This document shows positions 14,489-31,996 of a DNA stretch of 32,160 bases, piece after piece. Each line of letters opens with the position of its first letter. Position 1 is the stretch's first letter. The notes under the pieces are model-generated. The model was not told the DNA's origin and did no database searches. It worked only from the letters and a program-made list of their open reading frames with translations. Both the position numbers and the translations under genes were made by a program. Source of the DNA: Ruminococcus sp. (lineage in GTDB: Bacteria > Bacillota > Clostridia > Oscillospirales > Ruminococcaceae); contig JAFXVT010000044.1 of NCBI GenBank assembly GCA_017534835.1, forward strand, positions 1-32,160. The letters run 5' to 3'.

Positions 14489-14501
14489 ACTTGTTTAATT
14501 C

Positions 14502-14530
14502 TTGACAAACTTTGTGAAAAGTAGTACAAT
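14502..14530 (+). promoter_or_regulatory. Strong sigma-A promoter for aconitase
   Basis: A perfect TTGACA (14502-14507), 17 bases and TACAAT (14525-14530). The leader before the ATG at 14563 is only about 25 bases and includes GAAAGGA, so control must act mainly at the promoter itself. Confidence 0.88.
14512..14529 (+). promoter_or_regulatory. Candidate Rex operator over the aconitase promoter
   Basis: TTGTGAA-AAGT-AGTACAA, an imperfect 7-4-7 palindrome; 11 of 14 half-site positions match TTGTGAA-N4-TTCACAA. It fills the spacer and covers most of the -10 box, where a repressor would block RNA polymerase. The right half is degenerate, so binding is inferred. Confidence 0.45.
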
Positions 14531-14562
14531 ATTATATATATGTATTGAAAGGACTGATCTCT

Positions 14563-17249: not shown

Positions 17250-17274
17250 GCATTATTTTTCGGGAGGCAGCGAT

Positions 17275-17457
17275 ATGAGAGGAATGATAGTATTCCTGAT
17301 ATTTCTCGTAGCTCTGATGTTCATTGCGTGGTGCCTGAACACCTACCGGCATATCCGTGCCGGCGGCTGGAAGGGCTTTGCTGCTGCGGTGGACATCATC
17401 GGCGCTGTGCTGCTTGCCGGAATGGCTGTGCTGCTCGCGTTGCCGCTTCTGAAGTGA
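17275..17457 (+). CDS. 60-residue two-helix membrane protein, unknown
   Basis: Two hydrophobic segments (GMIVFLIFLVALMFIAWC and AVDIIGAVLLAGMAVLLAL) are separated by a short basic loop (YRHIRAGGWKG). GGGAGG seven bases before the ATG supports translation. It lies 25 bases after the TraX-like gene and one base before the next gene. I recognise no family. Confidence 0.6.
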   Translation: MRGMIVFLIFLVALMFIAWCLNTYRHIRAGGWKGFAAAVDIIGAVLLAGMAVLLALPLLK

Positions 17458-17458
17458 T

Positions 17459-17797
17459 ATGATGACACGTTTCAAGGGCGCCGTAAGGTATTCTCCGGGC
17501 TGTATATACGGTTTTGCTCTGGCTTTCCCGGTGATGCTGGCAATACTTGCATTGACCGGCGAAGCGATAATGGAAAATGAAGTTATAGGTCTTGTGCTGT
17601 ATGTCGCAGTGTGCACTTTGCTGTATTTTCTCGGCTTCATTGCCGGCAGGAAGATATACGGCTTCACAGAGCGGAAATTCTCCGAAACGCCTTTTTTCTG
17701 CGAGCGTGTGGGAATGTGGGCGGTGCTGACTGAATCAGCCGTGTCCGGTGCGGTATTTATGCTGACGCTGTGTATCACGGCGCTGTTATTACTCTGA
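17459..17797 (+). CDS. 112-residue three-helix membrane protein, unknown
   Basis: Three hydrophobic segments (about 14-34, 43-63 and 90-112) are separated by a basic loop containing GRKIYGFTERKFSETPF. It starts one base after the preceding stop (TGATATGATG, with two candidate ATGs), so it is likely coupled to it. I recognise no family; it may form a membrane assembly with its tiny neighbours, but nothing in the sequence proves that. Confidence 0.6.
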   Translation: MMTRFKGAVRYSPGCIYGFALAFPVMLAILALTGEAIMENEVIGLVLYVAVCTLLYFLGFIAGRKIYGFTERKFSETPFFCERVGMWAVLTESAVSGAVFMLTLCITALLLL

Positions 17798-17813
17798 CGA
17801 AAGGGGAGCAGCT

Positions 17814-18017
17814 GTGAACGTAATGCCGCAATATTGTAAATACCGTGCACATCTGGAGGGAAAGGACTATGTTATAGTTCTCGTTTCGGTGGTGCTTCTC
17901 TGCGCACTAAGACTCGGTCTGCCGAAGCTTTTCAAGGAGGCGGACGAGCGTGTGCTCAATGCCGCTTCGTGGGTCATCACGACGCTGTTTATGCTTGCTC
18001 TTATGTTTCTGACATAA
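17814..18017 (+). CDS. 67-residue two-helix membrane protein, unknown
   Basis: GTG start with AAAGGGGAG six bases upstream. Two hydrophobic segments (DYVIVLVSVVLLCALRLGL and WVITTLFMLALMFL) flank an acidic/basic loop (KLFKEADERVLN). Fourth in a run of membrane genes starting at the TraX-like gene. An in-frame ATG at codon 4 is an alternative start. I recognise no family. The following 61 bases to icd contain a CGCCG/CGGCG mini-hairpin and no convincing promoter, so icd may be read through from upstream. Confidence 0.55.
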   Translation: MNVMPQYCKYRAHLEGKDYVIVLVSVVLLCALRLGLPKLFKEADERVLNAASWVITTLFMLALMFLT

Positions 18018-18078
18018 ATAATTATGCGATATTTCCGCCGTTACGGCGATAATCAAATCTATCAGGAGGTCTGAACCA

Positions 18079-19290
18079 ATGGCAAAAATCACTATGAAAA
18101 CTCCGCTCGTCGAAATGGACGGCGACGAGATGACAAGAATACTCTGGCAGTGGATAAAGGAAACTCTCCTTGAACCATATGTCGAGCTCAACACCGAGTA
18201 TTACGACCTCGGTCTCAAGCACCGCGAGGAGACAAAGGATCAGGTGACTATCGACTCCGCAGAGGCTACAAAGAAGTACGGCGTTGCTGTAAAGTGCGCT
18301 ACTATCACTCCCAATGCGGCAAGGATGCCCGAATACAATCTCACACAGATGTGGAAGTCGCCCAACGGCACTATCAGAGCTGCTCTCGACGGCACTGTTT
18401 TCAGGACTCCTATCATCGTCAAGGGCATCGAGCCCTATATCCCCACATGGACAAAGCCTATCACTATCGCCCGTCACGCTTACGGCGATGTTTACAAGAA
18501 CACCGAGATGCGCGTATCAAAGGGCAGCAAGGCTGAGCTCGTTGTGACCGATGAAAACGGCAACGAGACACGCGAGCTCATCCACGATTTCAGCAAGTGT
18601 GACGGCATCATACAGGGACTTCACAACCTCGATGATTCTATTGCCGGCTTCGCAAGAGCCTGCCTCAACTATGGCCTCGACCTCAAGCAGGACGTTTGGT
18701 TCGCTTCCAAGGACACTATCTCAAAGAAGTATGACCACCGCTTCAAGGACATCTTCCAGGAGATATTCGACAAGGAGTACAAGGAGAAGTATGAGGCAGC
18801 AGGCATCGAATACTTCTACACCCTCATCGACGATGCCGTGGCTCGTGTTATCCGCTCGAACGGCGGCTACATCTGGGCTTGCAAGAACTATGACGGCGAC
18901 GTTATGTCCGATATGGTATCGACTGCTTACGGCAGCCTTGCTATGATGACCTCCGTTCTCGTTTCACCCGACGGTATCTATGAGTATGAGGCTGCTCACG
19001 GCACTGTTCAGCGTCATTACTACAAGTACCTCAAGGGCGAGGAGACCTCTACCAACTCTGTTGCTACTATCTTCGCATGGAGCGGCGCTCTCCGCAAGAG
19101 AGGCGAGCTCGACGCTACTCCCGAGCTCTGCGAGTTCGCGGACAAGCTTGAGAAGGCTACTATCCAGACGATCGAGGACGGCGTTATGACAGGTGACCTC
19201 TACCTCATATCCAAGCTTGAGAACAAGCGCAAGGTAGATTCTAAGACATTCCTTGACGAGATCAAGACGAGACTTGACAGACTTATGTGA
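18079..19290 (+). CDS. icd: NADP-dependent isocitrate dehydrogenase (eukaryote-type)
   Basis: 403 residues. It decarboxylates isocitrate to 2-oxoglutarate, making NADPH in the cytosol. Length and sequence fit the homodimeric type II (eukaryote-like) class: [18 protein letters not shown] at the N-terminus, [16 protein letters not shown], the metal-binding [18 protein letters not shown] and the cofactor-loop [14 protein letters not shown] followed by [11 protein letters not shown]. The ATG has AGGAGG nine bases upstream. It lies between the small membrane genes and rex. NADP preference is inferred from the family; NAD-dependent bacterial Icd proteins belong to other subfamilies. Confidence 0.96.
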
Positions 19291-19332
19291 TAAAGCGGAA
19301 ATATCCGCACAGATAGTGAGGCTTATACTAAA

Positions 19333-19965
19333 ATGTCAAAGAATCCAATATCAAATTCAGTCATAAGACGCCTTCCGAGGTATTACCGCTTTCTCGGCGA
19401 TCTTGAAGCGAACGGCTATGTCCGCATCTCTTCGAGAGAGCTTGCAGAGAAAATGGGACTCACTGCCTCGCAGATACGCCAGGATTTCAACTGCTTCGGC
19501 GAATTCGGTCAGCAGGGCTACGGCTATAACGTTACCGGGCTCAAGGCTGAGATAGGCAAGATACTCGGTCTCGACAAGCAGACTCCGATGATACTTCTCG
19601 GAGCGGGAAATCTCGGCAGAGCTCTCGCTTCGCACATAGATTTCCGCAACAGAGGCTTCGACCTTATCGGTATATTCGATGCGAATCCGGAGCTCGTCGG
19701 CAAAAAGATCGGCGAACTGACTGTTATGGACATCACTGAGCTTGAGGGATACTGCAAGGAAAACAAGCCGGAAGCAGCTATCCTCTGCATTCCGAGAGAG
19801 GCTGCGGAGAAGGAGGTCGAGCGCCTTATCAGCTATGGCATACGCGCATTCTGGAATTTCACGCATTATGACCTCCGCGTTACCCATAAGGACGTTGCAG
19901 TCGAGAACGTACATCTTGGCGACAGCCTTACTACGCTCTCATACTGCATAAATACGTCAGACTGA
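19333..19965 (+). CDS. rex: Redox-sensing transcriptional repressor Rex
   Basis: 210 residues. Rex represses fermentation and reductive genes and leaves DNA when NADH rises. The winged-helix N-terminus has RLPRYYRFLGDLEANGYVRISSRELAE and the recognition helix region TASQIRQDFNCFG followed by GYGYNV. The Rossmann domain begins with LLGAGNLGRAL (G90-x-G92-x-x-G95). The C-terminal domain-swap helix includes GIRAFWNFTHYDL. It is 42 bases after icd and probably cotranscribed, though the ribosome site (GTGAGG) is weak and distant. Its position between icd and fumC, together with Rex-like sites at 14512, 20025 and 20308, suggests a local regulon. Confidence 0.96.
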   Translation: MSKNPISNSVIRRLPRYYRFLGDLEANGYVRISSRELAEKMGLTASQIRQDFNCFGEFGQQGYGYNVTGLKAEIGKILGLDKQTPMILLGAGNLGRALASHIDFRNRGFDLIGIFDANPELVGKKIGELTVMDITELEGYCKENKPEAAILCIPREAAEKEVERLISYGIRAFWNFTHYDLRVTHKDVAVENVHLGDSLTTLSYCINTSD

Positions 19966-20307: not shown

Positions 20308-20325
20308 TTGTTAATAATATATCAA
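20308..20325 (+). promoter_or_regulatory. Candidate Rex operator upstream of fumC
   Basis: TTGTTAA-TAAT-ATATCAA: 12 of 14 half-site positions match TTGTTAA-N4-TTAACAA. It lies about 30 bases before the -35 of the main fumC promoter. A weaker alternative promoter (CTGACA 20289-20294, 18-base spacer, AATAAT 20313-20318) overlaps the site. Confidence 0.55.
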
Positions 20326-20445: not shown

Positions 20446-21822
20446 ATGGATTATCGTATCGAACACGACTCAATGGGCGAGGTAAAGGTGCCTGCCGACA
20501 AGTACTGGGCAGCCCAGACCGAGAGAAGCCACGAGAATTTCCTTATCGGCGTAGGTATCGAGACTATGCCGAGAGAGATAACTCACGCCTTCGGTATCCT
20601 CAAAAAGGCTGCGGCTATCGCAAACCACGCTGTAAAGCCGGAGAAAATGACCGACGAGAAGCTTTCGGCTATCTCGCAGGCTTGCGATGAGGTCATCAGC
20701 GGCGCTCTCAACGAGCATTTCCCGCTCGTTGTATGGCAGACCGGAAGCGGCACACAGTCGAATATGAACGCCAACGAGGTCATCGCCAACAGAGGCAACG
20801 AGATAGCCGGTGCTAAGCTCCTCCACCCGAACGATGATATAAATATGAGCCAGTCCTCGAACGATACCTTCCCGACAGCTATGCATATCGCGGCTGTTAT
20901 CGCTCTTGAGGACAAGGTGATACCCGCCGTCGACACTCTCGTTGAGACCTTCAGACGCCTTGAGGAAGAGAACGAAGGCATCGTAAAGAGCGGACGCACT
21001 CACCTTCAGGACGCTACTCCCATCAAGTTCTCGCAGGAGATAAGCGGATGGAGAGCTTCACTCGAAAAGGACAGAAAGATGATCCTTTCCTCCTGTGAGG
21101 AGCTCAAGGAGCTCGCACTCGGCGGAACTGCCGTTGGTACGGGTCTCAACGCTCCTGCCGGATTTGCTGAGAAGTCCGCCGAGGCTATCAGCGAGCTCAC
21201 TGGAAAGAAGTTCGTGACAGCCCCCAACAAGTTCCACTCGCTCACATCGAAGGACGAGATAGTTTTCGCACACGGCGCTCTCAAGGCTCTTGCGGCTGAT
21301 ATGATGAAGATCGCGAATGATGTACGCTGGCTCGCTTCCGGACCGCGTGACGGTCTCGGTGAGATATTCATCCCAGAGAATGAGCCCGGCTCGTCGATAA
21401 TGCCCGGCAAGGTGAATCCCACACAGTGCGAGCAGGTAACAATGGTCGCTGTACAGGTAATGGGCAACGATGTCGCAGTCGGTATGGCAGCTTCACAGGG
21501 CAACTTCGAGCTGAACGTATTTATGCCAGTGTGTGCTTACAACTTCCTCCAGTCGGCAAGACTTCTTGCAGAGTCGATACTCAGCTTCAACAAGAACTGT
21601 GCAGTCGGCATCAGGGCTAACAAGGAGAAGATGCACCACAACCTCCACAACTCGCTTATGCTCGTAACAGCGCTCAATCCCTACATCGGATATGAGAATG
21701 CCGCAAAGACAGCGAAGAAGGCGTTCAAGGACAACATCTCACTCAGGGAAGCCTGCGTTGAGCTCGGATTCCTCACGGAGGAGAAGTTCGACGAGGTATT
21801 CCACCCCGAGCAGATGGTCTGA
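20446..21822 (+). CDS. fumC: Class II fumarate hydratase
   Basis: 458 residues from ATG 20446, the normal FumC length. It interconverts malate and fumarate as an iron-free homotetramer in the cytosol. The opening YRIEHDSMGEVKVPADKYWAAQTERS is the class II start, followed by TGSGTQSNMNANEVIANR, QSSNDTFPTAMHIA, GRTHLQDATPI and the superfamily signature GSSIMPGKVNPTQCE. The start is chosen by the ribosome site GGAGAGG and by the promoter 62 bases upstream. It should supply fumarate to the reductase encoded downstream. Aspartase or argininosuccinate lyase is unlikely, given the SSNDTFPTAMH and GTGLNAP stretches. Confidence 0.96.
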   Translation: MDYRIEHDSMGEVKVPADKYWAAQTERSHENFLIGVGIETMPREITHAFGILKKAAAIANHAVKPEKMTDEKLSAISQACDEVISGALNEHFPLVVWQTGSGTQSNMNANEVIANRGNEIAGAKLLHPNDDINMSQSSNDTFPTAMHIAAVIALEDKVIPAVDTLVETFRRLEEENEGIVKSGRTHLQDATPIKFSQEISGWRASLEKDRKMILSSCEELKELALGGTAVGTGLNAPAGFAEKSAEAISELTGKKFVTAPNKFHSLTSKDEIVFAHGALKALAADMMKIANDVRWLASGPRDGLGEIFIPENEPGSSIMPGKVNPTQCEQVTMVAVQVMGNDVAVGMAASQGNFELNVFMPVCAYNFLQSARLLAESILSFNKNCAVGIRANKEKMHHNLHNSLMLVTALNPYIGYENAAKTAKKAFKDNISLREACVELGFLTEEKFDEVFHPEQMV

Positions 21823-21930: not shown

Positions 21931-22728
21931 ATGGAAACATTTACATATTACCCCGGCTGTACGCTGAGGACCAAGGCGAAGGACCTCGACACATATGCGA
22001 GAGTTTCCGCTGAGGCGCTCGGTATAAAGCTTGAAGAGCCTGCCGACTGGCAGTGCTGCGGAGGCGCTTACACGACCGCAAAGGACGAGATAGCTACCAA
22101 GCTCTCGGCTGTGAGAGTGCTCAATTCCGCGAAGGAGGCGGAAACTCCGCTCATCACGGTCTGTTCTGCGTGCCACAACGTCATAAAGCAGACCGAATAC
22201 GATATTTCCCGCGATGAGGAAATGGCTTCAAAGGTCAACAATTACCTCGGTCTGAGCGAGCCGTATACCGGCGGAACAAAGGTGTACCACTACCTTGAGA
22301 TGCTCCGCGACGTTGTCGGATTCGACAAGCTGAAGGAGAAGGTGGTAAATCCCTTCACCGGCAGGAAGATTGCTGCATATTACGGCTGCCTGCTGCTCCG
22401 TCCTGCAAAGGCACTCGCTATGGACGACCCCGAGAATCCCACGATAATCGAGGACTTCATCAGAGCGATAGGCGGAACTCCCGTTATCTACGCCCAGCGC
22501 AACGAGTGCTGCGGCGGATACATCACAATGGAGGACAAGGCTCAGGCTCAGAAGAGAAGCGGAGCTGTTATGGGCTCAGCAAAGGATATGGGCGCGGAAA
22601 TGGTCATCACAGCCTGTCCGCTGTGCCTTTACAACCTCAAAAAGAATTCGGGCTCAGACCTGCCCGTCTACTACTTTACCGAGCTTCTCGCCGAGGCTCT
22701 CGGCTTAAAGGAGGCAAGCAATGAATAA
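21931..22728 (+). CDS. hdrB: HdrB-like CCG-domain subunit
   Basis: 265 residues with two complete cysteine-rich CCG domains: C10, C42-C43-G, C78-x-x-C81 and C153, C193-C194-G, C229-x-x-C232. In HdrB each pair of CCG motifs holds a noncubane 4Fe-4S cluster that cleaves a disulfide or otherwise passes electrons. This is the first gene of a tightly packed operon, and its last eight bases overlap hdrC. The family includes heterodisulfide reductase B and the C-terminal domain of thiol:fumarate reductase TfrB. With no coenzyme M/B made in bacteria, the partner is unlikely to be CoM-S-S-CoB; the fumarate reductase genes in the same operon are the best clue. Confidence 0.93.
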   Translation: METFTYYPGCTLRTKAKDLDTYARVSAEALGIKLEEPADWQCCGGAYTTAKDEIATKLSAVRVLNSAKEAETPLITVCSACHNVIKQTEYDISRDEEMASKVNNYLGLSEPYTGGTKVYHYLEMLRDVVGFDKLKEKVVNPFTGRKIAAYYGCLLLRPAKALAMDDPENPTIIEDFIRAIGGTPVIYAQRNECCGGYITMEDKAQAQKRSGAVMGSAKDMGAEMVITACPLCLYNLKKNSGSDLPVYYFTELLAEALGLKEASNE

Positions 22729-23104
22729 GAATCTAAAGGAACAGGTGCTCCGTTCGGGCGGAGTGAACGTGCTAAAATGTATGCGCTGCGGAAAATGCTC
22801 CGGCACCTGCCCCTCCTACGGTGAAATGGAATATCACCCTCACCAGTTCGTGTATATGGTGGAAAAGGGCGATATTGAGACCCTGATGAAGTCAGAGTCG
22901 ATATACAAGTGCCTGACCTGCTTTGCCTGTGTTGACAGATGCCCGAGAGGCGTCGAGCCGGCAAAGGTCGTAGAGGCTGTACGTCTCGCGGCAGTCCGTC
23001 AGCAGGGCAATAACCACCTTGAGCCCTCTGAGATACCTGCACTGCTCGACGAGGACCTGCCTCAGCAGGCTATCGTGACGGCTATGAGAAAGTACGCTAA
23101 GTAA
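22721..23104 (+). CDS. hdrC: HdrC-like dicluster ferredoxin subunit
   Basis: 127 residues with two 4Fe-4S motifs, CMRCGKCSGTCP (20-31) and CLTCFACVDRCP (64-75), separated by a helical stretch with PHQFVYMVEKGD typical of HdrC. It carries electrons between HdrA and HdrB in soluble heterodisulfide-reductase-type complexes. Length is slightly below that of archaeal HdrC, with no membrane segment. It overlaps hdrB by eight bases and precedes hdrA by 15, so the order is B-C-A. Confidence 0.93.
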   Translation: MNKNLKEQVLRSGGVNVLKCMRCGKCSGTCPSYGEMEYHPHQFVYMVEKGDIETLMKSESIYKCLTCFACVDRCPRGVEPAKVVEAVRLAAVRQQGNNHLEPSEIPALLDEDLPQQAIVTAMRKYAK

Positions 23105-23119
23105 GGAGGAGACTATACT

Positions 23120-25111
23120 ATGCAGAGAATAGGTGTTTTTGTCTGTCACTGCGGTACGAATATCGCCGCAACGGTAGACGTTAAGGCTGTTGCAGAGGCG
23201 CTCGGTCACGAGCCCGGTGTAGTCATCTCTCAGGACTACCAGTATATGTGCTCGGAGTCGGGACAGGAGCTCGTGAAGAGCGCCATAAGGGAGCAGAAGC
23301 TCACAGGCGTTGTCATCTGCTCATGCTCGCCCCGTATGCACGAGAATACGTTCAGAAAGGCGGCAGCTTCTGCCGGTCTGAACCCGTATCTCGTCGAGAT
23401 AGCGAATATCCGTGAGCAGTGCTCGTGGATACACAAGGACATTGCAACTGCTACGGATAAGGCTATAATCCTCGGCAAGGCAGCAGTTGCCAAGGTGCAT
23501 CTCAACACGCCGCTCAGCTCAATGGAGAGTCCCGTTGTCAAGCGTGCGCTCGTTATCGGCGGAGGTATCGCCGGAATACAGACTGCCCTCGACATCGCTG
23601 AGGCTGGCTTTGATGTTGATATTGTTGAAAAGCAGCCGACAATCGGCGGAAAAATGGCTCAGATAGACAAGACCTTCCCGACACTCGACTGTGCCGCTTG
23701 TATCCTCACGCCGAAAATGGTAGAGGCTTCACAGAATGAGCACATCACGATCCATTCGTTCAGCGAGGTCGCCGATGTTAAGGGATTTGTCGGCAACTTC
23801 ACAGTCAAGATAAAGAAGAAGGCACGCTACGTCGACGAGACAAAGTGTACCGGCTGCGGACTGTGCACCGAAAAGTGCCCGATGAAGAAGGTACCGAATG
23901 AGTTCAATATGGGGCTCGACAACCGCTCGGCTGTATATATTCCCTTCGCACAGGCAGTTCCGAAGGTCGCAACTATCGACCCGAACTACTGTATGATGCT
24001 CAGGAGCGGCAAGTGCGGCGTGTGCTCGAAGGTCTGCTCGGCAGGCGCTATCGACTATAAGCAGCAGGATACCTTCATTGAGCAGAAGTACGGCGCTATC
24101 GTCGTAGCTACCGGCTTCAACCCGATAAACCTCGATAAATACGATGAATTCGCATATAATCAGTGCCCCGACGTTGTCACCTCGCTCGAACTTGAGCGAC
24201 TTATGAACGCCGCAGGTCCCAACGGCGGAACGCTCCTGCGTCCGTCCGACAAGAGCCACCCCCACACTATCGTTTTCGTTCAGTGTGTGGGAAGCCGCTG
24301 TGACGACGAGAAGGGCAAGCCCTACTGCTCGAAGATATGCTGTATGTATACGGCTAAGCACGCAATGCTGATACGCGAGAAGTACCCCGATACCGAGGTA
24401 TACGTGTTCTATATCGACGTCCGCACGCCCGGCAAGAACTTCGATGAGTTCTACCGCCGCGCTGTTGAGCAGTACAATGTACACTACATCAAGGGTATGG
24501 TAGGTAAGGTCACACCCAAGTCTGACGGAAAGATAGACGTCCAGGCTTCCGACCTGCTTGCGAATGAGCAGCTCCACATCGACGCTGATATGGTAGTCCT
24601 CGCGGCTGCTATCGAGCCGGACAAGACAGCACGTCCGCTCGCGACGATGCTCACGACCCAGATGGACACCAACGACTTCTTCACAGAAGCTCACCCCAAG
24701 CTCCGTCCTGTAGAGAGCGCAACGGCTGGCATCTTCCTCTCCGGCGCTTGTCAGGGACCGAAGGATATACCTGAGACCGTTGCTCAGGGAAGTGCCGCAG
24801 CTGCAAAGGCTATCGGTCTCCTCTGCAAGAACAGCATCACCTGCAACCCCTGCGTTGCTCATTCTGATGAGCTTATGTGCAACGGCTGCTCGTCCTGCGA
24901 AAAGGTTTGTCCCTACGGAGCTATCACATACATCGACAAGGAATTCAGAATGCCCGACCGTACCACGAAGGTGCGCAGAGTCGCAAGCGTCAACCCGGCT
25001 GTATGCCAGGGCTGCGGAGCTTGTACAGTTGCCTGTCCTTCGGGAGCTATGGACCTGAGCGGATTCTCTAACAGTCAGATAATGGCGGAGGTAGACGCGA
25101 TATGCAAGTAA
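23120..25111 (+). CDS. hdrA: HdrA-like flavin electron-bifurcating subunit
   Basis: 663 residues, full-length HdrA. The N-terminal domain has FVCHCG and ICSCSPRMHENTFRKA. The FAD-binding Rossmann begins with GGGIAG (147-152) and is followed by IGGKMAQIDKTFPTLDCAACILTPKM (C191, C194). An inserted ferredoxin has CTGCGLCTEKCP (243-254) and a further cluster set at 291-306. VQCVGSRCD and YCSKICC are HdrA landmarks, and a C-terminal pair of clusters sits near 587 (CNGCSSCEKVCP) and 629 (CQGCGACTVACP). In studied complexes this FAD splits electron pairs to a high- and a low-potential acceptor (ferredoxin). The ATG follows AAGGAGGAG. This is the central protein of the proposed complex. Confidence 0.95.
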   Translation: MQRIGVFVCHCGTNIAATVDVKAVAEALGHEPGVVISQDYQYMCSESGQELVKSAIREQKLTGVVICSCSPRMHENTFRKAAASAGLNPYLVEIANIREQCSWIHKDIATATDKAIILGKAAVAKVHLNTPLSSMESPVVKRALVIGGGIAGIQTALDIAEAGFDVDIVEKQPTIGGKMAQIDKTFPTLDCAACILTPKMVEASQNEHITIHSFSEVADVKGFVGNFTVKIKKKARYVDETKCTGCGLCTEKCPMKKVPNEFNMGLDNRSAVYIPFAQAVPKVATIDPNYCMMLRSGKCGVCSKVCSAGAIDYKQQDTFIEQKYGAIVVATGFNPINLDKYDEFAYNQCPDVVTSLELERLMNAAGPNGGTLLRPSDKSHPHTIVFVQCVGSRCDDEKGKPYCSKICCMYTAKHAMLIREKYPDTEVYVFYIDVRTPGKNFDEFYRRAVEQYNVHYIKGMVGKVTPKSDGKIDVQASDLLANEQLHIDADMVVLAAAIEPDKTARPLATMLTTQMDTNDFFTEAHPKLRPVESATAGIFLSGACQGPKDIPETVAQGSAAAAKAIGLLCKNSITCNPCVAHSDELMCNGCSSCEKVCPYGAITYIDKEFRMPDRTTKVRRVASVNPAVCQGCGACTVACPSGAMDLSGFSNSQIMAEVDAICK

Positions 25112-25542
25112 ATGAAAATTTTGAGCCTGTTATAGTCGCTTTCTGCTGCAACTGGTGTTCGTATGCAGGAGCCGACCTCTCAGGCACCAACAGACTGAAT
25201 TACCCCACAAACGTTAAGATAATCAGAGTTCCCTGCTCTTGCAGAGTAAACCCGATGTTCATTCTCAGAGCCTTCCAGAAGGGCGCGGACGGTGTCATCA
25301 TCTGCGGCTGTCACCCCGGCGACTGCCATTACACCTCCGGAAACTACTTCACACGCCGCCGTATAACGCTGCTCTACAGTATGCTCGACTTCCTCGGTAT
25401 CGAGCGCAACAGGACCCGTCTTGAGTGGGTATCCGCTGCTGAGGGCGCAAAGTTTGCTGCAACTATGGAGCAGTTCACCGCGGACGTAAAAGCTCTCGGA
25501 CCTAACAGGAGATTGGAGGACTTACGATGCAGGAAGCAATGA
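25102..25542 (+). CDS. MvhD/FlxD-like 2Fe-2S linker subunit
   Basis: 146 residues, the normal MvhD length. Cysteines fall in the family pattern: FCCNWC (C15, C16, C19), VPCSC (C45, C47) and CGCHPGDCHY (C68, C70, C75). MvhD or FlxD transfers electrons from a hydrogenase, formate dehydrogenase or NADH module into HdrA. It overlaps hdrA by 10 bases and the next gene by 16. No hydrogenase large subunit (no RxCGxC / DPCxxC) follows; the donor module is FlxABC-like, pointing to NAD(P)H as donor. Confidence 0.93.
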   Translation: MQVNENFEPVIVAFCCNWCSYAGADLSGTNRLNYPTNVKIIRVPCSCRVNPMFILRAFQKGADGVIICGCHPGDCHYTSGNYFTRRRITLLYSMLDFLGIERNRTRLEWVSAAEGAKFAATMEQFTADVKALGPNRRLEDLRCRKQ

Positions 25543-26498
25543 TAAAAAGAGCGAAGGAGCTCCTCGCAGACGGCAGCGTTGACCGCGTTATCGGCTGGAA
25601 GAGGGGAGAATTCGCATACGATATAACTCCGGCTGTGTTCACTTCCGCGGAGGAGCTTGAGCACGATTTCGTGTTTGATGACTTCACTGCTGCGAATGTG
25701 TCGAAGTACCTCGTCAAGGAGACTGCGAAGGAAGGAAAGATACTCGCCTTCCTCAAGCCCTGCGACACCTACAGCTTCAACCAGCTCATCAAGGAGCACC
25801 GCATCGACCGCGAAAAGGTCTATGTTGTGGGGATACCCGGAGGTCCCAAGCTCGACATCGAAAAGATAAAGGCTAAGGGCATCACAGGCGTTCTCAGCGT
25901 GAAAAATGAGGACTACACCCTGAAAATAGAGACTCTCTACGGCGAGGAGACTATGCCGTTCAGCGAGGCTGTGCTCGATAAGTGCGCTTCGTGCAAGAGC
26001 AAGAAGCACGTCGCTTATGACGAGCTCATCGGTGAGGACGGCGATGTCCTCGAGTCAAACCGCTTCGATATGGTAGAGAAGCTCGAGAATATGACCGCTC
26101 AGGAGCGTTTCGATTTCTGGCGCGGACAGCTCTCAAAGTGCATACGCTGCAATGCGTGCAGAAATGTATGTCCTGCCTGCACCTGCGAGAACTGCGTTTT
26201 CGACAACCCCAAGTCGGGTATCGACAACAAGGCGGCTGCCGACAGCTTCGAGGAGAATATGTTCCACATAATCCGTGCGTTCCACGTTGCCGGAAGATGT
26301 ACCGACTGCGGCGAATGCTCGCGCGTATGTCCCCAGCATATACCGCTCCACCTGCTCAACCGCAAGTTCATCAAGGACATCAACGAGCTTTACGGCGAGT
26401 ATCAGGCAGGTGCGGATACAACTTCAAGAGCGCCGCTCACCGACTATACAAAGGACGACTGCGAGCCGTCTGTAGTACACGAAAGGGGAGTTGAGTAA
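25527..26498 (+). CDS. FlxB/FlxC-like iron-sulfur subunit
   Basis: 323 residues. The N-terminal ~190 residues have ILAFLKPCDTYSFNQLIKEHRID and a Cys pair at DKCASCKSKKH (C153), a pattern shared with F420-hydrogenase beta (FrhB-like) proteins. Two 4Fe-4S motifs follow: CIRCNACRNVCP with an extra CTCENC (from C205) and CTDCGECSRVCP (from C258). In FlxABCD-HdrABC systems two such Fe-S subunits link the NAD(P)H flavoprotein to MvhD/HdrA. It sits between mvhD and a second dicluster gene, overlapping both. Which of the two is FlxB and which FlxC I cannot settle. Confidence 0.8.
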   Translation: MQEAMIKRAKELLADGSVDRVIGWKRGEFAYDITPAVFTSAEELEHDFVFDDFTAANVSKYLVKETAKEGKILAFLKPCDTYSFNQLIKEHRIDREKVYVVGIPGGPKLDIEKIKAKGITGVLSVKNEDYTLKIETLYGEETMPFSEAVLDKCASCKSKKHVAYDELIGEDGDVLESNRFDMVEKLENMTAQERFDFWRGQLSKCIRCNACRNVCPACTCENCVFDNPKSGIDNKAAADSFEENMFHIIRAFHVAGRCTDCGECSRVCPQHIPLHLLNRKFIKDINELYGEYQAGADTTSRAPLTDYTKDDCEPSVVHERGVE

Positions 26499-27517
26499 TG
26501 CTGAAAATATCTAAGTCAAGACTCGGCGAGCTGTTCGACGCTGTCGCAGCAAAGCAGACCCTCTATATCCCCACCGACCGCGAGCCCGGTGCTGCTGAGT
26601 ATAAGAAGTACGAGAGCGGTATGGAGCTGACAAAGGAGCTCAACACAGTCCGCAGCGCAAAGGATTTCTTCTTCCCGCAGACCGAGAACCTTGCTGATTT
26701 CAGGATCGATGGCAAGAATATCGAGGTCAGGGACATACGTGAGGAGTGCGGGGATTTCGTAGTTTTCGGCGTCCGCGCGTGTGATGCGAGAAGCTTCACT
26801 ATCCTCGATAAGGTGTTCCTCTGCGAGCCCGTGGACAGCTTCTACAAGAACCGCCGCGACCACGGAACTGTCGTTACAATGGCGTGCAGCCGTCCTGCCG
26901 AGACCTGCTTCTGTCAGACCTTCGGCATCGACCCGACCTCTCCCGAGGGCGATGCTGCCTGCTTCGATGACGGCGAGAGCATCTTCTTTAAGGCTAATAC
27001 CGAAAAGGGTCAGGCTTTCATTGATTCGATAGCTTCTCTCCTTGAGGAGGGCGACACTGCGAAGCTCGACGAGGTAAACGCAAAGACAAAGGAAATAATG
27101 GCAAAGCTTCCGCTCGCCAAGCTCTCGACCGGGAACTTCGGCGGCGATAAGCTGAACGAATACTTCAACTCTGACAAGTGGGCGGAGCTCTCTGAGGCTT
27201 GCCTCGGCTGCGGCACCTGCACATTCGTATGTCCCACCTGTCAGTGCTACGATATAAGGGACTTCAACACCGGTCACGGCATCAAGCGCTTCCGCTGCTG
27301 GGATTCGTGTATGTATTCCGACTTCACAAAAATGGCGCACGGCAATCCGAGACTTACTCAGCTCGAGCGCTTCCGTCAGCGCTTTATGCACAAGCTGGTG
27401 TACTTCCCGGCAAACAATAACGGCGAATTCGGCTGCGTGGGCTGCGGAAGATGTCTTGCAAAGTGCCCTATCTCGATGAATATCGTCAAAGTAATGAAAG
27501 CATTGGAGGAAAAGTGA
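26498..27517 (+). CDS. FlxC/AsrA-like dicluster iron-sulfur subunit
   Basis: 339 residues. VFGVRACDARSFTILDKVFL and AETCFCQTFGIDPTSPEGD match the sulfhydrogenase beta / anaerobic sulfite reductase A (HydB/AsrA) family, whose members carry two C-terminal 4Fe-4S motifs. Here these are CLGCGTCTFVCP (from C235) and CVGCGRCLAKCP (from C313), with CWDSCMYSDF in between. The ATG overlaps the previous stop by one base and the gene ends in the one-base overlap TGATG with flxA. In HydBG- and AsrAB-type pairs this subunit always sits beside a FAD/NAD partner, exactly as here. Confidence 0.85.
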   Translation: MLKISKSRLGELFDAVAAKQTLYIPTDREPGAAEYKKYESGMELTKELNTVRSAKDFFFPQTENLADFRIDGKNIEVRDIREECGDFVVFGVRACDARSFTILDKVFLCEPVDSFYKNRRDHGTVVTMACSRPAETCFCQTFGIDPTSPEGDAACFDDGESIFFKANTEKGQAFIDSIASLLEEGDTAKLDEVNAKTKEIMAKLPLAKLSTGNFGGDKLNEYFNSDKWAELSEACLGCGTCTFVCPTCQCYDIRDFNTGHGIKRFRCWDSCMYSDFTKMAHGNPRLTQLERFRQRFMHKLVYFPANNNGEFGCVGCGRCLAKCPISMNIVKVMKALEEK

Positions 27518-28344
27518 TGAACAACGATACATTGATACCAAAGATCGGCGTAGTCACTGATATTCGTCAGGATACCCCCGATGTAAAGACATTCAGAGTA
27601 GTAGCTCCCGAGGGCGGCAAGGTCTTCGAGCATATGCCCGGACAGTGCGCGATGCTCTCGATGCCCGGCGTAGGTGAGGCAATGTTCTCTATCACGTCCT
27701 CTCCCACGAACAAGGAGTTTATGGAGTTCAGCATCAAGAAGTGCGGCTGCCTCACAGAATGGCTGCACGCTATGGAGGTGGGTCAGCAGATAACTATCCG
27801 CGGACCTTACGGCAACGCATTCCCCGTTGAGGGCGACCTCAAGGGCAAGGACCTGCTCTTCATCGCCGGCGGTATCGGACTTGCGCCGCTCCGCTCAGTT
27901 ATCAACTACGTCCGCGATAACCGCGCGAATTACGGTGATGTTCAGGTCATCTACGGCTCACGCTCGAAGGACGACCTCGTTGATTACAAGGAGATAATCG
28001 ACGAGTGGATGGCTGACCCGAATATCAGGGTAGACCTCACCATCGACAATCCGCAGGAGGGCTGGGACGGCCATGTCGGCTTCGTGCCCAATTACGTTAA
28101 GGAGCTCGCTCCGTCTACGAGCAAGACTGTTCTCGTCTGCGGACCTCCGATAATGATAAAGTTCACGCTTGCAGGTCTCAAGGAGCTCGGCTTCACCGAG
28201 ACTCAGGTGTATACAACTATGGAGCTCCGTATGAAGTGCGGAGTGGGCAAGTGCGGACGCTGCAATATCGGCAACAAGTATGTCTGCAAGGACGGACCGG
28301 TATTCCGCTTCGACCAGCTCGGCGAGCTGCCGGACGAGTATTGA
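27517..28344 (+). CDS. FlxA-like FAD/NAD(P)H oxidoreductase subunit
   Basis: 275 residues from ATG 27517. It has a ferredoxin-reductase layout: FAD domain with FSITSSP (the RxYS/T-like motif) and GPYGNAFP, NAD-binding domain with IAGGIGLAPLRSVI, VIYGSRSKDDL and VLVCGPPIMI. The C-terminal 2Fe-2S site uses C241, C246, C249 and C257. This is the family of PyrK, HydG-gamma, AsrB and FlxA, which pull electrons from NAD(P)H. NADH versus NADPH is not readable with confidence. GGAGG lies seven bases before the start. It is the expected electron entry point of the complex. Confidence 0.93.
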   Translation: MNNDTLIPKIGVVTDIRQDTPDVKTFRVVAPEGGKVFEHMPGQCAMLSMPGVGEAMFSITSSPTNKEFMEFSIKKCGCLTEWLHAMEVGQQITIRGPYGNAFPVEGDLKGKDLLFIAGGIGLAPLRSVINYVRDNRANYGDVQVIYGSRSKDDLVDYKEIIDEWMADPNIRVDLTIDNPQEGWDGHVGFVPNYVKELAPSTSKTVLVCGPPIMIKFTLAGLKELGFTETQVYTTMELRMKCGVGKCGRCNIGNKYVCKDGPVFRFDQLGELPDEY

Positions 28345-28359
28345 TAAGGAGAGCTATAA

Positions 28360-29043
28360 ATGGGAAATATGCTTAATGTTTACCTGTTCGGCAAGAAGTA
28401 TGAAGTGCCGGCAGGACTTACGATAATGACAGCTATGGAATATGCAGGCTACGAGCTCGTAAGAGGCTGCGGATGCAGAAACGGATTCTGCGGCGCCTGC
28501 GCTACTATCTACAGGATAAAGGGCGAATCCGGTCTTCACGGATGTCTCGCCTGTCAGACAGAGGTACAGGAGGGGATGTACGTTGCGACTCTGCCCTTCT
28601 TCCCGCTCGAAAAGAAGGTATACAACATCGAGGAGATAAAGCCAGACCAGCAGATAATGATGCAGCTCTATCCCGAGATATACAGCTGTATCGGCTGTAA
28701 TGCCTGCACCAAGGCTTGTACTCAGGAGCTCAACGTTATGCAGTATATCGCATACGCTCAGCGCGGCGAGTATGAGAAGTGCGCCGAGGAGAGCTTCGAC
28801 TGCGTTATGTGCGGAGTCTGCTCATCACGCTGTCCGGCAGGTATCTCGCATCCTCAGGTCGCTATGCTCGCAAGACGTCTCAACGGCAAGTACATCGCTC
28901 CCGAGTGCGGTCACCTCAGCGACCGTGTGAACGAGATAAACGAGGGCATCTTCAACGACAAGATAGCCGAGCTTATGTCAAAGGCTGTCACAAACGTTGA
29001 CGAGCTCAAGGATATGTACAACCACCGCGATATAGAGAAGTAA
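28360..29043 (+). CDS. Fumarate reductase iron-sulfur subunit (TfrB N-terminal-like)
   Basis: 227 residues. A plant-type 2Fe-2S domain at the N-terminus (C37, C39, C44, C47, C62) is followed by two 4Fe-4S motifs, CIGCNACTKACTQ (C111-C121) and CVMCGVCSSRCP (C149-C159). SdhB/FrdB proteins share this order, but the spacing and the second motif look closer to the N-terminal part of thiol:fumarate reductase TfrB than to quinone-linked FrdB. The TfrB C-terminal CCG domain is absent here and is instead a separate gene (hdrB) at the operon start. The ATG has AAGGAGA eight bases upstream. It should carry electrons to the FrdA-like flavoprotein, 12 bases downstream. Confidence 0.85.
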   Translation: MGNMLNVYLFGKKYEVPAGLTIMTAMEYAGYELVRGCGCRNGFCGACATIYRIKGESGLHGCLACQTEVQEGMYVATLPFFPLEKKVYNIEEIKPDQQIMMQLYPEIYSCIGCNACTKACTQELNVMQYIAYAQRGEYEKCAEESFDCVMCGVCSSRCPAGISHPQVAMLARRLNGKYIAPECGHLSDRVNEINEGIFNDKIAELMSKAVTNVDELKDMYNHRDIEK

Positions 29044-29055
29044 GGGGGAGCAGAG

Positions 29056-30660
29056 ATGTATAAGGTTGAAAAGCTCAATGAGCTTGCAAAAGTAGTTGCA
29101 GAAAAGAGAGCCGAAAACGCTGCTCTCGAGCCGAGACGTATGACTGCGGAGGAGAAGGACGAGCTCCTCGCTCACTTCCACCCCGATTACAAGCAGGAGG
29201 AGTTCACTGTCCTCGCTGCCGGCGTAAACAAGGGCGATAAGGTGCCCACTCAGCTCGCCGAGCTCTTACAGGGAAAGAGCCGTATCAGCGCATCTGACGT
29301 TGACCTCACAGCTCCCGATTATGACACGGATGTGCTCATCATCGGCGGCGGCGGAGCAGGCGCTTCTGCTGCGATAGAGGCTGACGAGGCTGGTGTTAAG
29401 GCTATGATAGTCACAAAGCTCCGTATCGGCGACGCTAACACAATGATGGCAGAGGGCGGGATACAGGCTGCTGACAAGCCAAACGATTCGCCTGCTATCC
29501 ACTTCCTCGATGCATTCGGCGGCGGTCACTTTGCTGCAAAGCCCGAGCTCGTTGCAAAGCTCGTAACAAAGGCTCCTGAGGCTATCCAGTGGCTCAACAA
29601 GCTCGGTGTAGAGTTCGACAAGGAGCCGGACGGCACTATGGTCACGACTCACGGCGGCGGTACCTCGCGCAAGCGTATGCACGCTGCGAAGGACTACTCC
29701 GGCGCTGAGATAATGCGTACTCTCCGCGATGAGGTCATCAACAGAGGTATCCCCGTTGTGGATTTCACTGCGGCAGTTGAGATAATCCTCGACGAAAACG
29801 GCAGAGCAGCAGGTGCTGTTCTGATGAATATGGAGACAAAGGAGCTCCTCGTTGCACGTGCAAAGACTGTCATCATCGCAACAGGCGGTGCAGGACGTCT
29901 CCACTATCAGGGCTTCCCGACCTCCAACCACTACGGCGCGACCGCTGACGGTCTTATCCTCGGCTACAGAGTCGGCGCAAGTCTGCTCTATGCTGATACT
30001 CTCCAGTATCACCCGACAGGTACGGGCTATCCCGAGCAGATATTCGGCGCCCTCGTTACCGAGAAGGTGCGTTCGCTCGGCGCTAAGCTCGTGAACATCG
30101 ACGGCGATGTATTCATGCATCCCCTTGAGACTCGCGACGTAACTGCGGCTTCCATTATCCGTGAGTGTACAGAGCGCGGCAAGGGCATCGAAACGAACCT
30201 CGGCAAGGCTGTATGGCTCGACACTCCTATGATAGAGTACAAGAACGGCGAGGGCACTATCGAGAAGCGTATCCCTGCAATGATGCGTATGTTCGGCAAG
30301 TACGGCATCGACATCCGCAAGGAGCCTATCCTCGTTTACCCGACCCTCCACTATCAGAACGGCGGACTCAATATCTCAGAGGACTGCGGAACTGACGTTG
30401 AGAACCTCTTTGCTGCCGGTGAGGTAGCAGGCGGTATCCACGGCAGAAACAGACTTATGGGCAATTCGCTGCTCGATGTCATCGTATTCGGCAGAAATGC
30501 AGGTATGTGCGCAGCTGCAAAGGCTAAGAGCACAGAGACTCCTTCAAAGCTCACTCTTGAGCACATCGAGAAGTTCAACAAGGAGCTCGAGGCAGCAGGT
30601 GCAGCAAGCGGCGCTCAGTCACCGATGCTCCTGCCGCACTATGCAAGAAAGTCAAAGTAA
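29056..30660 (+). CDS. Soluble fumarate reductase flavoprotein (FrdA/TfrA-like)
   Basis: 534 residues. After an unusual ~90-residue N-terminal extension comes the FAD motif IGGGGAGASAA (97-102), then MMAEGGIQAA, HPTGTG (H319), TEKVRSLGA (R339) and IHGRNRLMGNSLLDV (R466, the family's active-site Arg). These are the substrate-binding and proton-donor positions of fumarate reductase/succinate dehydrogenase. The His that attaches FAD in quinone-linked enzymes (SHT context) is replaced by NTM, so FAD is probably noncovalent, as in soluble enzymes. There is no signal peptide and no membrane anchor gene (FrdC/D or SdhC/D) nearby. Direction is inferred as fumarate to succinate. L-aspartate oxidase (NadB) is the main alternative, but the RNRLMGNSLL tail, the partner Fe-S gene and operon context favour fumarate reductase. 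Confidence 0.88.
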   Translation: MYKVEKLNELAKVVAEKRAENAALEPRRMTAEEKDELLAHFHPDYKQEEFTVLAAGVNKGDKVPTQLAELLQGKSRISASDVDLTAPDYDTDVLIIGGGGAGASAAIEADEAGVKAMIVTKLRIGDANTMMAEGGIQAADKPNDSPAIHFLDAFGGGHFAAKPELVAKLVTKAPEAIQWLNKLGVEFDKEPDGTMVTTHGGGTSRKRMHAAKDYSGAEIMRTLRDEVINRGIPVVDFTAAVEIILDENGRAAGAVLMNMETKELLVARAKTVIIATGGAGRLHYQGFPTSNHYGATADGLILGYRVGASLLYADTLQYHPTGTGYPEQIFGALVTEKVRSLGAKLVNIDGDVFMHPLETRDVTAASIIRECTERGKGIETNLGKAVWLDTPMIEYKNGEGTIEKRIPAMMRMFGKYGIDIRKEPILVYPTLHYQNGGLNISEDCGTDVENLFAAGEVAGGIHGRNRLMGNSLLDVIVFGRNAGMCAAAKAKSTETPSKLTLEHIEKFNKELEAAGAASGAQSPMLLPHYARKSK

Positions 30661-30748: not shown

Positions 30749-31996
30749 ATGGAATTTTTTGACGGTCTCTTAACCGTAAAAAGCGTCGGATTTCTGATGT
30801 TCTCGGTGCTGCTCATCGCGGCGCTCGGCTATGTCCTCGGACGCATCACCATCAAGGGCATCTCACTCGGTACAGCAGGCGTATTCATAGTAGCGCTCGC
30901 TTACGGTATGCTCTTCCATGAACAGCTCACAACTCAGCTCGTCGTAAGTCAGAAGGACGCGTCAGGAACAGTCCTTGCTGATATATCCTTCGTAGATTCA
31001 GCACTGAAGATAGTCGACAACCTCGGACTGATACTGTTCGTTTCGGCAGTCGGCTTCATCGCCGGACCGAATTTCTTTGCAAACTTCAAGAAGAACTTCA
31101 AATCCTACGTGCTCCTCGCGCTCATAATAATCCTTAGCGGCGGACTCGCCTGCGCAGGCTGCATTATGATAGGCAGGAACTTCACCGACCTTGACACCGG
31201 CGAATTTACAGCTCTTATGTCAGGACTTCTCTCAGGTGCGCTCACAAGTACGCCCGGCTTCTCGGCAGCAAAGGACGCTGCCGGAGCAGAGCTCGAGCCT
31301 GTAGTAAGTGTCGGCTATGGTATCGCCTATATCTTCGGTGTTCTCGGCGTTGTTCTCTTCGTCCAGCTCGTACCGAAAATGCTCGGTGCTGATATGGCAA
31401 AGGAGCGTGAGCTCCTCGTCGGCAAGGAGGCAAAGGCGAAGAAGATGAAGTCCGACAAGAAGCTGATCCAGATGGACGATTTTGGCATTATGCCCTTTGC
31501 ACTCGCAGCTGTTCTCGGTATCATCATCGGCTCGATAAAGTTCAGGAACTTCTCGCTCTCCACAACAGGCGGCTGCCTGCTCGTTGCGCTCCTCTTCGGT
31601 CACTTCGGACGCATCGGCAGCATCAGCATAATGCCCAAGGATACGACGCTCAAGGTTTTCCGCGAGCTCGGACTGATGTTCTTCCTCATCGGTGCAGGCG
31701 TATCCGGCGGAGCTAAATTCGCAGAGTACTTCCAGGCAGTTTACTTCCTCTATGGTATCATAATGACGATAGTACCGATGATAATCGGCTTCCTGTTCGC
31801 AAAGTTCGTACTGAAGCTCAACCTGCTCAACAACCTCGGCTCCATCACAGGCGGTATGACCTCGACACCTGCGCTCGGCACGCTCATCAGCACAGCCGGC
31901 ACAGAGGACGTTGCATCTGCATACGCGGCAACATATCCCGTTGCCCTCATATCGGTAGTTCTCGTCGAGCAGTTCATAATCATACTCTTCAAGTAA
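30749..31996 (+). CDS. AspT/YidE-family permease, candidate dicarboxylate exporter
   Basis: 415 residues with about 10 hydrophobic segments arranged as two repeats. Each repeat carries the family signature: SGALTSTPGFSAA near residue 165 and GGMTSTPALGTL near 370. AspT, YidE and YbjL share this duplication. AspT swaps aspartate for alanine, and Actinobacillus and E. coli relatives have been linked to succinate export. The two TrkA-C domains common in the family's middle loop are replaced by a short lysine-rich linker (KEAKAKKMKSDKK). It follows frdA by 88 bases; succinate export is an inference from context, not from residues. Ten bases upstream is AGAAAGAAAG, a weak ribosome site. Confidence 0.75.
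   Translation: MEFFDGLLTVKSVGFLMFSVLLIAALGYVLGRITIKGISLGTAGVFIVALAYGMLFHEQLTTQLVVSQKDASGTVLADISFVDSALKIVDNLGLILFVSAVGFIAGPNFFANFKKNFKSYVLLALIIILSGGLACAGCIMIGRNFTDLDTGEFTALMSGLLSGALTSTPGFSAAKDAAGAELEPVVSVGYGIAYIFGVLGVVLFVQLVPKMLGADMAKERELLVGKEAKAKKMKSDKKLIQMDDFGIMPFALAAVLGIIIGSIKFRNFSLSTTGGCLLVALLFGHFGRIGSISIMPKDTTLKVFRELGLMFFLIGAGVSGGAKFAEYFQAVYFLYGIIMTIVPMIIGFLFAKFVLKLNLLNNLGSITGGMTSTPALGTLISTAGTEDVASAYAATYPVALISVVLVEQFIIILFK

Follow-up and report, generated by a model that had tools for sequence, protein, structure and literature searches.

In this study, we analyzed a stretch of Ruminococcus sp. DNA of 32,160 bases (contig JAFXVT010000044.1; here called the window), which is the entire contig C66 of a 2.56-Mb genome with 4.89% contamination. 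It carries nine consecutive genes, hdrB, hdrC, hdrA, flxD, flxC, flxB, flxA, frdB, and frdA, whose products probably act in the cytosol as an NADH:fumarate reductase, with Flx-Hdr bifurcating electrons between fumarate and ferredoxin. Gene order, residues, fold, and host gene content lend good support to a soluble NADH:fumarate reductase that is composed of Flx-Hdr and FrdBA and independent of quinones. Reduction of ferredoxin by bifurcation would be a sound inference from the end-to-end homology of HdrA, the intact set of HdrA, HdrBC, and FlxD, and the energetics. A preliminary description of this DNA had proposed a soluble NADH:fumarate reductase that also reduces ferredoxin; this was partly supported, namely in the quinone-independent reductase.

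The nine open reading frames (ORFs) lie at positions 21931-30660, all on the + strand, and each has an ATG start and a Shine-Dalgarno-like sequence:

21931..22728, + strand: hdrB-like gene, two CCG domains with ten Cys for two noncubane [4Fe-4S] clusters
22721..23104, + strand: hdrC-like gene, dicluster [4Fe-4S] electron-transfer subunit, by profile matches
23120..25111, + strand: hdrA-like gene, FAD/Fe-S subunit with the presumed bifurcating flavin (NF040770, 803 bits, cut-off 1100)
25102..25542, + strand: flxD/mvhD-like gene, [2Fe-2S] subunit connecting HdrA with the NADH module (PF02662 FlpD, 183 bits)
25527..26498, + strand: flxC-like gene, Fe-S subunit resembling FdhB of F420 formate dehydrogenase-Hdr complexes (9t1s_M, 7bkb_E, 8rvu_E)
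26498..27517, + strand: flxB-like gene, Fe-S subunit, sulfhydrogenase beta/AsrA-like (NF040829, 170 bits, cut-off 690; 9nez_B)
27517..28344, + strand: flxA-like gene, FAD/NAD(P)H oxidoreductase with a DHODB-type Fe-S domain (PF00175, PF00970, PF10418; 9nez_C); an earlier ATG at 27451 is possible
28360..29043, + strand: frdB-like gene, [2Fe-2S] domain and HdrC-like two-[4Fe-4S] domain
29056..30660, + strand: frdA-like gene, non-covalent FAD fumarate reductase flavoprotein (TfrA model NF004900, 350 bits, cut-off 718)

The tight packing noted earlier was borne out, with gaps from −16 to +15 bases (successively −8, 15, −10, −16, −1, −1, 15, and 12), and by this spacing the genes would form one operon. 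The family assignments of the preliminary description also hold on profile and structure matches, as "like" names because none of the matches displayed for the nine proteins reaches its NCBIfam cut-off.

The presumed operon encodes a complete FlxABCD-HdrABC subunit set, i.e. HdrA, HdrB, HdrC, FlxD, two Fe-S subunits, and the FAD/NAD subunit. All ten CCG-cluster Cys of HdrB are kept in 47 of 47 alignment rows and eight Cys of HdrC in 43 of 43. HdrA, the sole full-length HdrA match in its genome, aligns over residues 3-660 to the HdrA of 5odc (5odc_A, 702.8 bits), and its Fer4 motifs lie inside the protein (about 237-322) and at the C-terminus. These features bear on a physical Flx-Hdr-Frd complex without bifurcation, which would pass NADH electrons to fumarate only, or be gated with minor ferredoxin reduction. 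Electron flow from NADH to fumarate alone is strongly downhill, the case for bifurcation comes from homology, and in the excerpted PMC9430772 the MetVF-HdrCBA-MvhD system showed interaction and not bifurcation, with an HdrA devoid of the inserted ferredoxin domain. However, a simple NADH:fumarate reductase would have no need of an Hdr module, and the HdrA of the window has both the long alignment to 5odc and the inner and C-terminal Fer4 motifs; we regard a non-bifurcating complex as quite unlikely. A second Hdr system in the genome was also considered and set aside: there is one full HdrA in each of ten genomes of the panel described below, further matches being short ferredoxin-like stretches.

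In FrdA, H319, E336, R360, H432, and R466 are present in 54/54 rows and T335 is replaced by Ser in one row; we take the conserved His, Arg, and Thr/Glu to be the catalytic residues of the complex II flavoprotein. N128 aligns to a His of 7d6v_A, presumably the carrier of covalent FAD in complex II, and is Asn in all 54 rows. Enzymes with Asn in place of the FAD-binding His reduce fumarate and hardly oxidize succinate. At the position of the active-site Glu of NadB (presumably Glu121 of E. coli NadB), FrdA has Gly in 52 and Ala in two of the 54 rows, and the genome's own NadB-like protein has Glu. The latter protein, encoded beside nadC, is the only other FrdA-like match in the genome (E ≤ 0.001), and a second fumarate reductase was set aside. 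FrdB (227 aa) consists of Fer2 and Fer4 domains only, the fused CCG domain of the TfrB type being absent. Two full CxxCxxCxxxC motifs, assigned to [4Fe-4S] clusters by motif, occur in 51/51 rows, and the [3Fe-4S] pattern of complex II was not found; in complex II, the [3Fe-4S] cluster of FrdB adjoins the quinone site. In a structure comparison of the FrdB model, the dicluster domain folds like HdrC. A Sdh/Frd B chain was absent from the 50 rows for the model (VIA-align 2), which proves nothing.

Host gene content was surveyed in a panel of ten hand-picked genomes of the genus (the own genome, Ruminococcus flavefaciens FD-1, and eight others), nine of which are at most 5% contaminated. The earlier statement that a quinone anchor is lacking was confirmed: the operon encodes no membrane anchor, and Sdh_cyt (PF01127), the one anchor family searched, was found in 0/10 genomes. 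A MqnA-type menaquinone gene was found in 0/10, while MenD was above the cut-off in one genome (G002), reached 185 of 244 bits in G025, and gave weak matches only in the other eight. Since FrdA stays below the cut-offs of TfrA (350 bits), SdhA/FrdA (282), and NadB (272), FrdBA might be a quinol:fumarate reductase or an L-aspartate oxidase merely neighboring the Hdr operon. The absence of the Sdh_cyt anchor, the scarcity of quinone genes, the two full [4Fe-4S] motifs of FrdB, the separate NadB-like protein with nadC, and the Gly or Ala in place of the NadB Glu nevertheless make this extremely improbable. As to ferredoxin outlets, an RnfD/NqrB-type match above 380 bits was found in 8/10 and a [FeFe]-hydrogenase above the cut-off in 9/10 genomes; the own genome has RnfC, D, E, and A and a NADH-dependent group A6 [FeFe]-hydrogenase above the cut-offs, with adjoining NuoF/NuoE-like proteins below theirs. 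Because Rnf-type genes occur in eight panel genomes and in the own genome, reduced ferredoxin would probably be cashed in at the membrane, so that the initial idea of energy conservation without a membrane was half right.

To follow the locus in relatives, a scan with organism names was carried out, in which 80 loci were kept of 509 relatives and records of the own genome may be left out. The exact nine-gene order was intact in all 63 listed loci that extend more than 7.3 kb upstream of frdA, answering the in-silico search suggested at the outset, and in 18/19 further same-genus or same-order stretches, the other one being cut by a contig end; some of these genomes are shared with the 80-locus listing. 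Because of this recurrence, the clustering is not due to chance. Within the same-genus set (n = 59), a FrdA-family match was present in 35/35 genomes of at least 90% rounded completeness, that of G005 being a contig-end fragment; the genomes with only a NadB-like match (seven) or a 58-residue fragment (G003) are all below 90% complete. Judged from its sequence, the host is a gut bacterium that falls within the R. flavefaciens group; nearest among the matches listed were Ruminococcus metagenome-assembled genomes (MAGs) and R. flavefaciens FD-1 (FrdA 92% identical). Hosts of the listed loci were mostly gut Clostridia, in addition to Treponema sp. Marseille-Q4130, in which the nine-gene order is intact, and three Treponema/Spirochaetaceae MAGs, in one of which (L144) the contig begins within reach of hdrA only. 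Regarding the extent of the operon, the nine genes stood, and two further genes that the preliminary description had not included also recur in relatives:

20446..21822, + strand: fumC, class II fumarase and presumed operon start (TIGR00979, 707 bits, cut-off 664.75), 108 bases 5′ of hdrB
30749..31996, + strand: AspT/YidE-family transporter, presumed succinate exporter (PF06826, 201 bits; TIGR01625 above cut-off), 88 bases 3′ of frdA

Among the listed loci with enough sequence, fumC was found upstream in 58/61 and the transporter within reach downstream in 51/68. Fumarate is taken as the substrate because of this position of fumC, the conserved catalytic residues, and the absence of the aspartate-oxidase Glu.

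We infer a physical complex, its electron path, bifurcation, and direction as follows. FlxA would take a hydride from NADH, and FlxB, FlxC, and FlxD would relay the electrons to the HdrA flavin, from which one electron would go up to ferredoxin and the other down via HdrC and HdrB. The HdrC-like dicluster domain of FrdB would accept electrons from the HdrB side and pass them to the [2Fe-2S] centre and then to the non-covalent FAD of FrdA, which would reduce fumarate supplied by FumC. The net reaction would be 2 NADH + fumarate + Fdox → 2 NAD+ + succinate + Fdred2−. Reduced ferredoxin may then feed an ion gradient through Rnf or H2 formation by [FeFe]-hydrogenase, export of succinate is probably the role of the AspT-like protein, and Rex probably tunes expression to NADH. 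Using E0′ values of +33 mV for fumarate and −320 mV for NAD, as given in the excerpt of PMC5861303, we computed a yield of −49 kJ per fumarate for ferredoxin at −420 mV and −33 kJ at −500 mV; with NAD at −280 mV and ferredoxin at −500 mV it was −18 kJ. The energetic argument made previously thus holds over the potentials assumed. The operon most likely makes the succinate of its host. Grown with a methanogen, R. flavefaciens forms less succinate relative to acetate according to the excerpts of PMC7174568 and PMC4649033, as expected of a NADH sink.

Other gene orders were found in an even sample of the phylum, in which 39 of 398 genomes (own included) had the FrdA family at E ≤ 1e-120. The surroundings of frdBA were viewed in 29 of these (30 loci) and in G186, and HdrA was searched in 27. 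A full Hdr-Flx set with frdBA occurs in three orders: hdrBCA-flxDCBA-frdBA as in the window, frdBA-hdrBCA-flxDCBA in four genomes (G103, G150, G146, and G186), and hdrCBA-flxDCBA-frdBA in one (L073). Five loci (L056, L059, L070, L079, and L082, the last one cut) have hdrCBA, a large HdrA-like protein, mvhD, and an unassigned protein, followed by frdBA. The HdrA-like protein measures 1070 aa in L056 and 1489 aa in L070, and the unassigned protein of L056 (366 aa) has no NCBIfam match at 1e-20. Read by eye, kor-like (L056) or sucCD-like (L070) genes lie near frdBA. In addition, L062, L066, L080, and L081 show a minimal hdrC-hdrB-frdB-frdA arrangement with no hdrA seen adjoining; elsewhere in these genomes, 8-14 HdrA-like stretches were matched.

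Genes of the sucCD or kor type near FrdBA in other Bacillota, as in an oxidative or reversible tricarboxylic acid (TCA) cycle, would suit an enzyme that runs in reverse in some hosts, i.e. succinate oxidation with electron confurcation, in which reduced ferredoxin and succinate yield NADH. For the present host, FumC, [FeFe]-hydrogenase, and the fact that R. flavefaciens is known to ferment to succinate indicate reduction instead, as does the invariant Asn at the position of the FAD-binding His; we consider the reverse direction very improbable.

For phylogenetic analysis, quick trees were calculated from 54 FrdA rows plus NadB and from 44 HdrA rows (42 in a clean version). The window clade of the FrdA tree comprises 24 hand-chosen rows of 99 loci (L032-L050, L084-L163). 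Before trees and residue counts, L061, L069, and L083 (same genomes as L193-L195) and rows outside the length filter, e.g. L055, were dropped; L082 (cut ORF) was left out of the HdrA counts and the clean HdrA tree, and L189 (another HdrA type) out of the latter. On the FrdA tree as on the HdrA tree, there are three changes in the state "full Hdr-Flx beside frdBA". A single clade of all linked rows was rejected (FrdA, p = 2.05e-5; HdrA, p = 1.4e-5), as was holding together the first two arrangements (FrdA, p = 1.5e-71; HdrA, p = 0.0024, or 0.0001 with L082 and L189 included). Because linkage changes three times and occurs in three different gene orders, we read Hdr-Flx and frdBA as apparently joined repeatedly. 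As a separate observation, G182 has two FrdA-family genes (L071 and L072); frdB was not detected beside the L072 copy, whose branch is long (0.72).

Linkage is not universal. No hdr gene was found in the stretch around frdBA in 16/29 genomes, which covers only ~1.4 kb (G314) and 2.1 kb (G216) upstream of frdB in two of them. Thirteen of the 16 carry hdrA and flx genes elsewhere, which is 13/13 of those with HdrA; these unlinked sets have all seven genes in ten genomes, while flxA is cut off in G266, hdrBC is cut off in G464, and G216 has two incomplete copies. HdrA was not found at E ≤ 1e-30 in 4/27 FrdA-family genomes (G439, G164, G366, and G161; two families), G366 being of the same genus as G439 and G164. 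The FrdA proteins of the HdrA-less loci L054 and L060 sit on long branches (0.66 and 1.0), a test that rests on two rows only. The FrdBA locus L054 adjoins a 1144-aa protein that is pyruvate carboxylase-like by eye.

Several points weigh against bifurcation to fumarate by one complex. As same-family FrdBA occurs in genomes without a HdrA match, FrdBA can work with a donor other than Hdr, against strict dependence. The linkage-change counts do not tell gain from loss, and Flx-Hdr is reported as widespread in anaerobes, which leaves the unlinked co-occurrence without a control. The intact CCG clusters of HdrB (47/47) would suit a disulfide substrate no less than a relay. Ferredoxin outlets vary within the panel, because G002 and G025 lack a strong RnfD-type match and G002, which has MenD, also lacks an above-cut-off [FeFe]-hydrogenase. 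ATP-PEPCK, the one candidate searched for the carboxylation step, was found in 0/10 panel genomes. Biochemistry of such a complex was not found in the open-licence literature surveyed, and in tubeworm symbionts tfrAB was, according to the excerpt of PMC11636981, the exception in its Hdr-Flx cluster, whose genes otherwise shared one expression pattern.

Some of these points would be explained by two enzymes in one operon, in which Flx-Hdr bifurcates with a disulfide acceptor (protein or small thiol) and a separate FrdBA oxidizes the resulting thiol or another donor, the coupling being metabolic and not physical. The ten noncubane-cluster Cys of HdrB, conserved as in true heterodisulfide reductases, and the sampled genomes of other families with frdBA apart from hdr or without HdrA favor it. 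On the other hand, DsrC (PF04358) was found in 0/10 panel genomes, FrdB is without the type of CCG domain to which thiol oxidation in TfrB is ascribed and thus has no evident thiol-oxidizing route, and linkage occurs in three gene orders on separate branches. Altogether, we judge two separate enzymes to be unlikely and keep to the bifurcating NADH:fumarate reductase. A broader proposal, to which we give about even chances, is that FrdBA may be a plug-in terminal-acceptor module of Hdr-type bifurcating enzymes: the HdrC-like domain of FrdB would dock on HdrB and fumarate would replace the heterodisulfide. Within Bacillota, the module would have become linked to Flx-Hdr, and to further HdrA assemblies, on several occasions; it would also occur in Spirochaetota, and succinate fermentation of the R. 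flavefaciens group would be a quinone-free, Rnf-linked fumarate respiration.

Parts of the system resemble known enzymes. As for methanogen TfrAB, the TfrA model NF004900 gave the top NCBIfam row for FrdA, and weak matches to separate parts of the TfrB model came from FrdB, HdrC, and HdrB; here, however, HdrB provides the CCG part as a protein of its own, Flx-HdrA adds an input, and FrdA reaches 350 of 718 bits. The seven-gene NADH dehydrogenase/heterodisulfide reductase module is shared with Desulfovibrio vulgaris FlxABCD-HdrABC, for which Ramos et al. in 2015 reportedly described a role in ethanol metabolism. The proposed partner of the Desulfovibrio enzyme is DsrC, a feature of that host and not of all members, whereas in the panel DsrC was not found and in the window frdBA is joined. 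The SdhE model of 8-methylmenaquinol:fumarate reductase SdhABE is the best NCBIfam match of HdrB, below the cut-off (146.9 bits, cut-off 500), but SdhABE is quinone-linked with SdhE as membrane anchor (per model name), and most panel genomes are without the two searched kinds of quinone gene.

A bifurcation-linked fumarate reductase is already known as a hypothesis and is not a new idea. Citing a 2019 preprint by Koendjbiharie and van Kranenburg (10.20944/preprints201912.0288.v1), which reportedly proposes it as well, PMC7282089 in its excerpts assumes ferredoxin-linked fumarate reduction in Pseudoclostridium thermosuccinogenes and describes a "succinate operon" in which fumarate hydratase is combined with Flx-Hdr, a fumarate reductase, and a presumptive transporter of succinate. 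By this description, not by sequence, it matches the window in fumarase, Flx-Hdr (seven genes if locus tags step by five), two frd genes, and transporter in the same order, but belongs to a thermophile of another genus. For the tfrAB-korABCD-flxABCD-hdrABC cluster of tubeworm symbionts and Thioflavicoccus mobilis, a direct complex of tfrAB, Flx-Hdr, and korABCD was proposed (PMC6315080, excerpt). There, too, fumarate reductase genes are interspersed with Flx-Hdr; compared by description only, it differs in its thiol:fumarate reductase label, the 2-oxoglutarate:ferredoxin oxidoreductase, and the reductive TCA cycle. The earlier remark that no described complex of this exact make-up was known is therefore out of date. 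In Sporomusa ovata, HdrCBA-MvhD-MetVF likewise has a Hdr/MvhD module serving a non-disulfide catalytic subunit, with contact seen in pull-downs, but its catalytic module and HdrA domain make-up are others, it is partly membrane-bound, and no tight complex was purified, as far as the excerpt of PMC9430772 goes. No description of the operon in Ruminococcus was found in the open-licence literature surveyed. The present analysis adds that the operon occurs, highly conserved, in the R. flavefaciens group and in further gut Clostridia, and that the genes are joined in different orders. Also added are the signature of non-covalent FAD and two [4Fe-4S] clusters, an HdrC-like fold for FrdB, the missing machinery for quinones, the likely control by Rex, and the HdrA-less exceptions.

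R. flavefaciens degrades cellulose in the rumen and produces succinate, which competes for reducing power with H2 and hence with methane. If this operon encodes its fumarate reductase, the conversion of oxaloacetate to succinate would use three NADH (one in malate dehydrogenase, two in the bifurcating enzyme) and not two, with reduced ferredoxin returned, and ATP and H2 yields in rumen fermentation models would change. Fumarate would also become one of the proven acceptors in flavin-based bifurcation, and in gut metagenomes hdr genes would no longer be readable as methanogen markers alone.

Regulation by the cellular NADH state is suggested by three features upstream of the operon:

19333..19965, + strand: rex, NADH/NAD+-sensing repressor (NF003990, 288 bits, cut-off 233)
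20308..20325, + strand: putative Rex-like operator over a −10-like hexamer, 2 mismatches, starting 138 bases before fumC
14491-14508: second putative Rex-like site, before aconitase

Allowing up to three mismatches, four Rex-like matches were observed in the window versus 0.68 expected. Among 76 usable upstream regions (row L121 not counted), a match of at least 11/14 was found before fumC in 20/21 rows with a FrdA at least 84% identical to that of the window, two pairs of which are probably the same genomes, and in 6/55 other rows. The same TTGTKAAK-type site lies at −122 to −156 in 14 rows, and shuffles of the region reach the score of the match in 0-14% of draws. Rex control thus likely holds for Ruminococcus, not for the whole clade.

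Further upstream, aconitase, isocitrate dehydrogenase (icd), and rex (14545-19965) bring the two arms of a split TCA cycle next to each other. A chimeric contig was considered and set aside, the same gene order being present in close relatives. At 1338-2933 (− strand), the window encodes a beta-CASP metallohydrolase with 391 bits versus the NCBIfam type VII CRISPR Cas14 model (cut-off 800) and 270 bits versus aCPSF1 (cut-off 580), which is likely an ordinary RNase.

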